A stretch of 38,949 bases of DNA from Desulfurococcales archaeon. Its GTDB lineage: Archaea > Thermoproteota > Thermoprotei_A > Sulfolobales > Ignisphaeraceae. How positions within the stretch are numbered: position 1 is the first letter of the stretch; every line of letters starts with the position of its first letter. The stretch spans positions 1-38,949 of the forward strand of contig JAPWUB010000001.1 of NCBI GenBank assembly GCA_028275745.1, in the 5' to 3' direction. Position numbers and translations under genes: made by a program. Of the stretch, positions 1,780 through 2,044 are shown piece after piece. The notes beneath the pieces are model-generated. The model saw only the letters and a program-made list of their open reading frames with translations. It had not been told where the DNA came from and did no database searches.

Positions 1780-1858
1780 TGTACCCCGCCGGACCGATCT
1801 CTCCACATTTCCATACCCATCCACGGGTCTTTCGGAGAGATGTGAGGCGGCGGGGCAC
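1780..1858 (-). ncRNA. H/ACA-type pseudouridine guide sRNA (candidate)
   Basis: Minus strand: lower stem CCCCGCCG/CGGCGGGG (1848-1855/1784-1791), upper stem ATCTCTCC/GGAGAGAT (1834-1841/1797-1804), internal pocket CCTCAC / CGGTC, ACA box at 1782-1780, 14 nt from upper stem to ACA. Confidence 0.75.
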
Positions 1859-1875: not shown

Positions 1876-1884
1876 GTATTTAGG
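1876..1884 (-). promoter_or_regulatory. possible TATA element for the H/ACA-type sRNA
   Basis: Minus strand CCTAAATAC about 24 nt upstream of the predicted RNA 5' end. Confidence 0.35.
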
Positions 1885-1967
1885 GTAAAAAGTCTTCGCA
1901 TTTCTTTGCTTCTGTGCAATGAAACTAAGCCAGTGTCAGTAATTAGTGGGTCTTGTTGGTGGGGCCG

Positions 1968-2044
1968 TGGTAGCGGGGGGTGGATTTGAACCACCGACCT
2001 CGGGGTTATGAGCCCCGCGGGCTGCCAGGCTGCCCTACCCCGCT
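1968..2044 (-). tRNA. initiator tRNA-Met(CAT), CCA encoded
   Basis: AGCGGGG/CCCCGCT acceptor, A1-T72, anticodon stem GGGG-CTCATAA-CCCC with initiator-type G:C run, 3' ACCA. Confidence 0.93.

Follow-up and report, generated by a model that had tools for sequence, protein, structure and literature searches.

A predicted Pab91-type box H/ACA guide RNA for U2593 of 23S rRNA in a Desulfurococcales archaeon and its relatives

The hairpin and its surroundings

The window, the whole stretch of 38,949 nucleotides analysed here, comes from a genome of 1.37 Mb in 121 contigs that is 75.5% complete. On its minus strand, in an intergenic site about 110 nucleotides downstream of the co-oriented gene for tRNA-Met(CAT), lies a hairpin followed by an ACA box. 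Read from 1856 to 1780, its parts follow the order GCCCCGCCG-CCTCAC-ATCTCTCC-(29 nt)-GGAGAGAT-CGGTC-CGGCGGGGT-ACA, and the layout given in a preliminary description of this DNA, including an ACA box 14 nucleotides from the upper stem, proves exact on re-reading. The features are listed below. The list refers to a covariance model, R1, used for the order-wide and phylum searches, to an alignment of 16 sequences, A2, and to 78 distinct parsed homologues, which are the basis of all counts on arms, upper stem P2 and apical part.

1780..1856, minus: predicted box H/ACA guide RNA (whole hairpin and ACA); 81.3 bits with covariance model R1
1848..1856, minus: lower stem P1, 5' strand (GCCCCGCCG); partner 1783-1791, outer and inner pairs covary
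1842..1847, minus: 5' pocket strand CCTCAC; CUCAC is complementary to target GUGAG
1834..1841, minus: upper stem P2, 5' strand (ATCTCTCC); P2 is variable among homologues, with better own-species pairing
1805..1833, minus: apical part; it has a capping helix (CCC/GGG) and the motif [A/G]UGNNNAUG, which 67 of the 78 homologues share
1797..1804, minus: upper stem P2, 3' strand (GGAGAGAT); covariation
1792..1796, minus: 3' pocket strand CGGTC; complementary to target GACCG, CGGTN in most of the 78 homologues
1783..1791, minus: lower stem P1, 3' strand (CGGCGGGGT); covariation
1780..1782, minus: ACA box, 14 nt from the closing pair of P2, invariant in A2
1876..1892, minus: TATA-like candidates CTTTTTA (1892-1886) and CCTAAATAC (1884-1876)
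1968..2044, minus: tRNA-Met(CAT), co-oriented upstream neighbour, outside the guide gene

The upper stem, ATCTCTCC/GGAGAGAT, has 8 base pairs, as had been described; the lower stem, CCCCGCCG/CGGCGGGG, also described as a perfect stem of 8, has 9 if the outer G-U is counted. The two strands of P2 are separated by 29 nucleotides, and the pocket strands are 6 and 5 nucleotides long. RNAfold, applied to 95 nucleotides, predicts the same hairpin at -42.7 kcal/mol. The following features of the H/ACA class are present: a lower stem of 7-9 base pairs, a pocket, an upper stem, and an ACA within the range of 14-16 nucleotides. Among published folds, one class that is productive is described as 10/5/9, has a 6/5 pocket and places the ANA box at a distance of 14 nucleotides (PMC4652768); the dimensions of the hairpin agree with it. 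A mechanical scan of both strands of the 38.9-kb window finds no other H/ACA geometry with 8+8 base pairs.

The DNA upstream of the hairpin varies among relatives, except at one place. Across an alignment of 79 upstream regions, most TATA-like motifs start 33 to 29 nucleotides before the hairpin: these five positions collect 45 matches, against 0 to 3 per position elsewhere. Such a fixed position is what one would expect of an archaeal promoter from which transcription starts at the hairpin or a few bases before it. In the window, the TATA-like CCTAAATAC that had been noted upstream is located at 1884-1876, and CTTTTTA, at 1892-1886, also lies near the position where the motifs of relatives cluster. 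No T-rich terminator is evident after the hairpin. The order and strand of the tRNA-Met gene are kept in several genus and family members (loci L022, L023, L025, L026, L027, L034 and L069).

Genes for the partner proteins Cbf5, L7Ae and Nop10 are found in the genome. The cbf5 gene is in two parts, 35 base pairs apart on the same contig and outside the window (C9:74360-75354 of genome G000), an arrangement consistent with the cbf5 intron that PMC2738675 reports in crenarchaea. Elsewhere in the window, plus-strand positions 1307-1396 match the Rfam tRNA model at 60.1 bits and receive no ARAGORN call; this is probably an intron-containing tRNA gene.

The 23S target and the conservation of the hairpin

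The genome's own 23S fragment carries the predicted target, GACCG-U-C-GUGAG, with which the guide arms pair at 10 of 10 positions (5+5). The target GACCGTCGTGAG has a single exact occurrence in the genome, within this fragment, and GACCGTNGTGAG also occurs exactly once, on contig C14, inside the 23S sequence GAGCTGGGTTTAGACCGTCGTGAGACAGGTCGG. Four 23S loci were scanned, the organism's own fragment and those of three genus members: among the approximately 370 to 1150 U sites of each locus, the target is the best paired, with the full 5+5 pairs. Both the site proposed by the preliminary description, with its two paired arms, and its position, placed by hand near E. coli U2593, are borne out. On the annotated E. 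coli 23S gene, 2904 nucleotides long and starting at 456330, the U lies at 458922, which is exactly position 2593, in the peptidyl-transferase region.

Homologues of the hairpin are found by blastn in the genus and in several further families of the order. In alignment A2, 93.8% of the cells of the stems are paired, and 9 of the 16 pairs have changed on both sides, in 29 such cells. None of 500 shuffled controls attains these values of pairing and two-sided change; moving the partners by 1 to 3 columns lowers the pairing to 38-54%; and RNAalifold independently predicts the same stems. Compensatory changes, proposed at the outset as a check of the structure, are thus present in both stems.

The guide arms stay constant while the stems vary. 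Of the 78 homologues, 67 have CTCAC as their 5' arm and 71 have a 3' arm that starts with CGGT, while P2 takes 46 different sequences. Each P2 strand nevertheless fits its own partner: the mean pairing is 5.9 out of 7, versus a mean of 4.4 and a maximum of 4.7 over 1000 draws in which strands were re-paired. At its fifth position the 3' arm varies freely, with C, A or T. In genome G024, an AACCG target is accompanied by the matching arm CGGTT; its relative G034 has the same target and the arm CGGTA, so that the fifth position counts only as weak evidence.

In the apical part, the motif [AG]TGNNNATG is found on the 3' strand of 67 of the 78 homologues, GA is found on the 5' side of 76, and a capping helix of the CCC/GGG type is common to them. 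The conserved [A/G]UGNNNAUG strand faces the strand that contains GA. This motif makes the apical part a probable K-turn candidate, and hence a candidate L7Ae site, in which sheared G-A pairs are plausible some nine to ten layers up from the pocket. The K-turn or K-loop that the preliminary description expected in this region is thereby narrowed to the conserved motif, short of a full assignment of the pairing.

Guide and target across the order

Model R1 has matches in 140 of the 214 genomes of the order and in all 11 of the genus; a few of the 140, in a Sulfolobaceae-like family and in genome G012, are other H/ACA RNAs as judged by their arms. The Sulfolobaceae-like matches, at 27-32 bits, were considered as orthologues and rejected: their arms are CAGCC or UAGCC with 5' arms of type YUAUC, and these differences point to another H/ACA RNA. 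In a sample of 299 genomes of the phylum, almost nothing is found outside the order, with a single convincing copy, arms intact, in genome G306. A separate collection yields named matches in records of Ignisphaera, Desulfurococcales, Acidilobaceae, Aeropyrum, Caldisphaera, Staphylothermus, Thermogladius, Thermosphaera and Pyrodictiaceae.

The presence of the guide was compared with the state of its target. Where the target core is intact, 47 of 57 genomes have an R1 match; where it is changed, none of 28 has one. By class of target, and leaving out weak matches with wrong arms, the counts are 45/55 for the canonical core, 2/2 for AACCG, 0/5 for GAGCG, and 0/23 for the change of GUGAG to GCGAG. 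The order-wide Fisher test gives p = 2e-14, a nominal value that treats related genomes as independent and overstates the evidence, since the GAGCG and GCGAG classes amount to two clades. A laxer search of 32 genomes, the majority from the changed-core groups, finds no compensated guide in those groups. In one family (G032), which has an intact target and no first-pass match, the laxer search yields a copy with intact arms at 23.6 bits: absence from genomes with an intact target is therefore not always real.

Some homologues keep the target and change the arms. Family f2 (loci L124-L128, L099 and L220) has mostly the 5' arm CACAC, with 3' arms CGGTC, CAGTC, TAGTC or TAGCC, and its 23S target is unchanged where seen; one member of the genus has the 3' arm TAGTT, again with an unchanged target where known. 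A search for a different 23S site that would fit the f2 arms gives none clearly better than the canonical one. These altered arms may reflect decay, weakened pairing or retargeting.

Two observations concern neighbouring cases. In genome G049 (locus L123), insertions in 23S, which are introns, break up the U2593 target site, so that a guided modification there would need prior splicing. At loci L222-L229 of Sulfolobaceae-like genomes, around locus positions 1501-1620, another single-hairpin H/ACA RNA, with the 3' arm CAGCC or UAGCC, is followed, after about 5-15 nucleotides, by a box C/D-like RNA (TGATGA ... CTGA), a pair whose arrangement suggests a bicistronic guide unit; the best fit for its H/ACA arms is GGCTGTCGGTGG, which lies upstream of 23S by about 1.4 kb, possibly in 16S.

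Interpretation and relation to known guide RNAs

The window was compared with Rfam both at the curated gathering thresholds and by ranking of E-values. At the gathering threshold, the 38.9-kb window yields only tRNAs. By E-value, the best match is RF02795, Pab91, with 41 bits, an E-value of 5.9e-7 and the full model covered. The cut-off of this model is 71 bits, and since the window scores below it, standard Rfam annotation leaves the guide RNA unlabelled; among 121 sampled genomes of the phylum, no hit reaches the cut-off. The second Rfam match, mir-58 (25 bits, cut-off 76), was set aside as a chance resemblance between hairpins. The RNA is thus unannotated, as first described, at the default threshold of Rfam, and the covariance search with archaeal H/ACA models that had been suggested puts Pab91 on top, with identical guide arms. 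What the preliminary description missed is that the guide-target pair is already known in Pyrococcus, as Pab91/Psi2685. Pab91 is a proven H/ACA guide sRNA of P. abyssi, and its target in 23S is U2685, a nucleotide of the peptidyl-transferase centre (PMC6138745, PMC4652768); given the shared guide arms, this nucleotide would correspond to E. coli U2593.

We are highly confident that the hairpin is a single-hairpin archaeal box H/ACA guide RNA for U2593 of 23S, the counterpart of Pab91. The RNA would be transcribed from its own promoter and bound by Cbf5, Nop10, Gar1 and, through an apical K-turn, L7Ae. The pocket arms CUCAC and CGGUC would then pair with GACCG-U-C-GUGAG in 23S, and the target U, at E. 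coli position 2593, would be presented for conversion to pseudouridine. Transcription, assembly of the RNP, the pseudouridine itself and orthology with Pab91 are what we infer from the features above.

Three other readings have to be weighed. The first keeps the H/ACA guide, by its structure, and denies the orthology: equal arms would have arisen independently in response to a shared target. We hold this to be unlikely, while leaving it some weight. The apical part is unlike that of the Pab91 model, with 22 unmatched nucleotides; on the other hand, both arms, the size of the pocket and the overall layout agree. The copy in G306 can be argued both ways, as it is the only convincing one that the phylum sample gives beyond the order, and as a convincing copy outside the order does exist.

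In the second reading, the main target of the H/ACA RNA is in another RNA, and the match to 23S is secondary. The arms of some relatives, which pair at only about 8 of 10 positions with the 23S site, lean in that direction. We consider it quite improbable, given that the 10/10 match is the best of all the 23S U sites scanned and that the RNA family is absent where the core of the site has changed. Finally, a hairpin with no guide role (a transcription terminator, the leader of an mRNA or a mobile element's inverted repeat) would suit a GC-rich, intergenic sequence, and one copy per genome also fits a cis element, but it is very unlikely given the covariation, the spread of R1 and the conservation of the guide arms and ACA, in an RNA that persists across families although the upstream DNA differs, has no T-run downstream, and has arms complementary to 23S.

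Taking the hairpin as a guide for U2593, a broader history can be put forward, tentatively and as a serious possibility. Pseudouridine at U2593 would be an old archaeal modification, kept in the order by a guide of the Pab91 type and lost, with a change of the target core, in lineages such as the Sulfolobaceae-like family and some members of one other family. The RNA of a third group, with altered arms, would perhaps have been retargeted. If this is true, these genomes form a natural series of co-losses of guide and target. The cases in which the guide is lost as the target changes could reveal the role of Psi2593 in the ribosome.

Few archaea have had guide RNAs for rRNA pseudouridines tested. 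The present analysis adds a well-supported guide, with its target, for a crenarchaeal order in which little RNA work has been done. Three points appear to be new: the spread of the Pab91-type guide in crenarchaea, the series of losses, and the gap in detection by Rfam, whose Pab91 model is drawn too narrowly to pick up the crenarchaeal guide.

With Pab21, Pab35/HgcF, Pab40/HgcG, Pab105/HgcE and sR201-sR210 of Pyrobaculum, the RNA of the window shares the RNP class and the pocket rule, while the targets of those RNAs are others. Some of these sRNAs contain multiple H/ACA motifs, and those of Pyrobaculum are for the most part without a full lower stem (PMC4652768). The likeness to Pab91 goes much further: both RNAs have the arms CUCAC and CGGUC, a 6/5 pocket, a lower stem of 9 base pairs and the same distance to ACA, and the 23S target implied by the arms is identical (PMC6138745; PMC4652768). 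The stem sequences, in contrast, are unlike, and where Pab91 has a short apical loop, the RNA of the window has a longer apical part, with a capping helix and a two-part RUGNNNAUG motif. The RNA of the window is the functional counterpart of Pyrococcus Pab91 and, judging from these shared elements, probably its orthologue.
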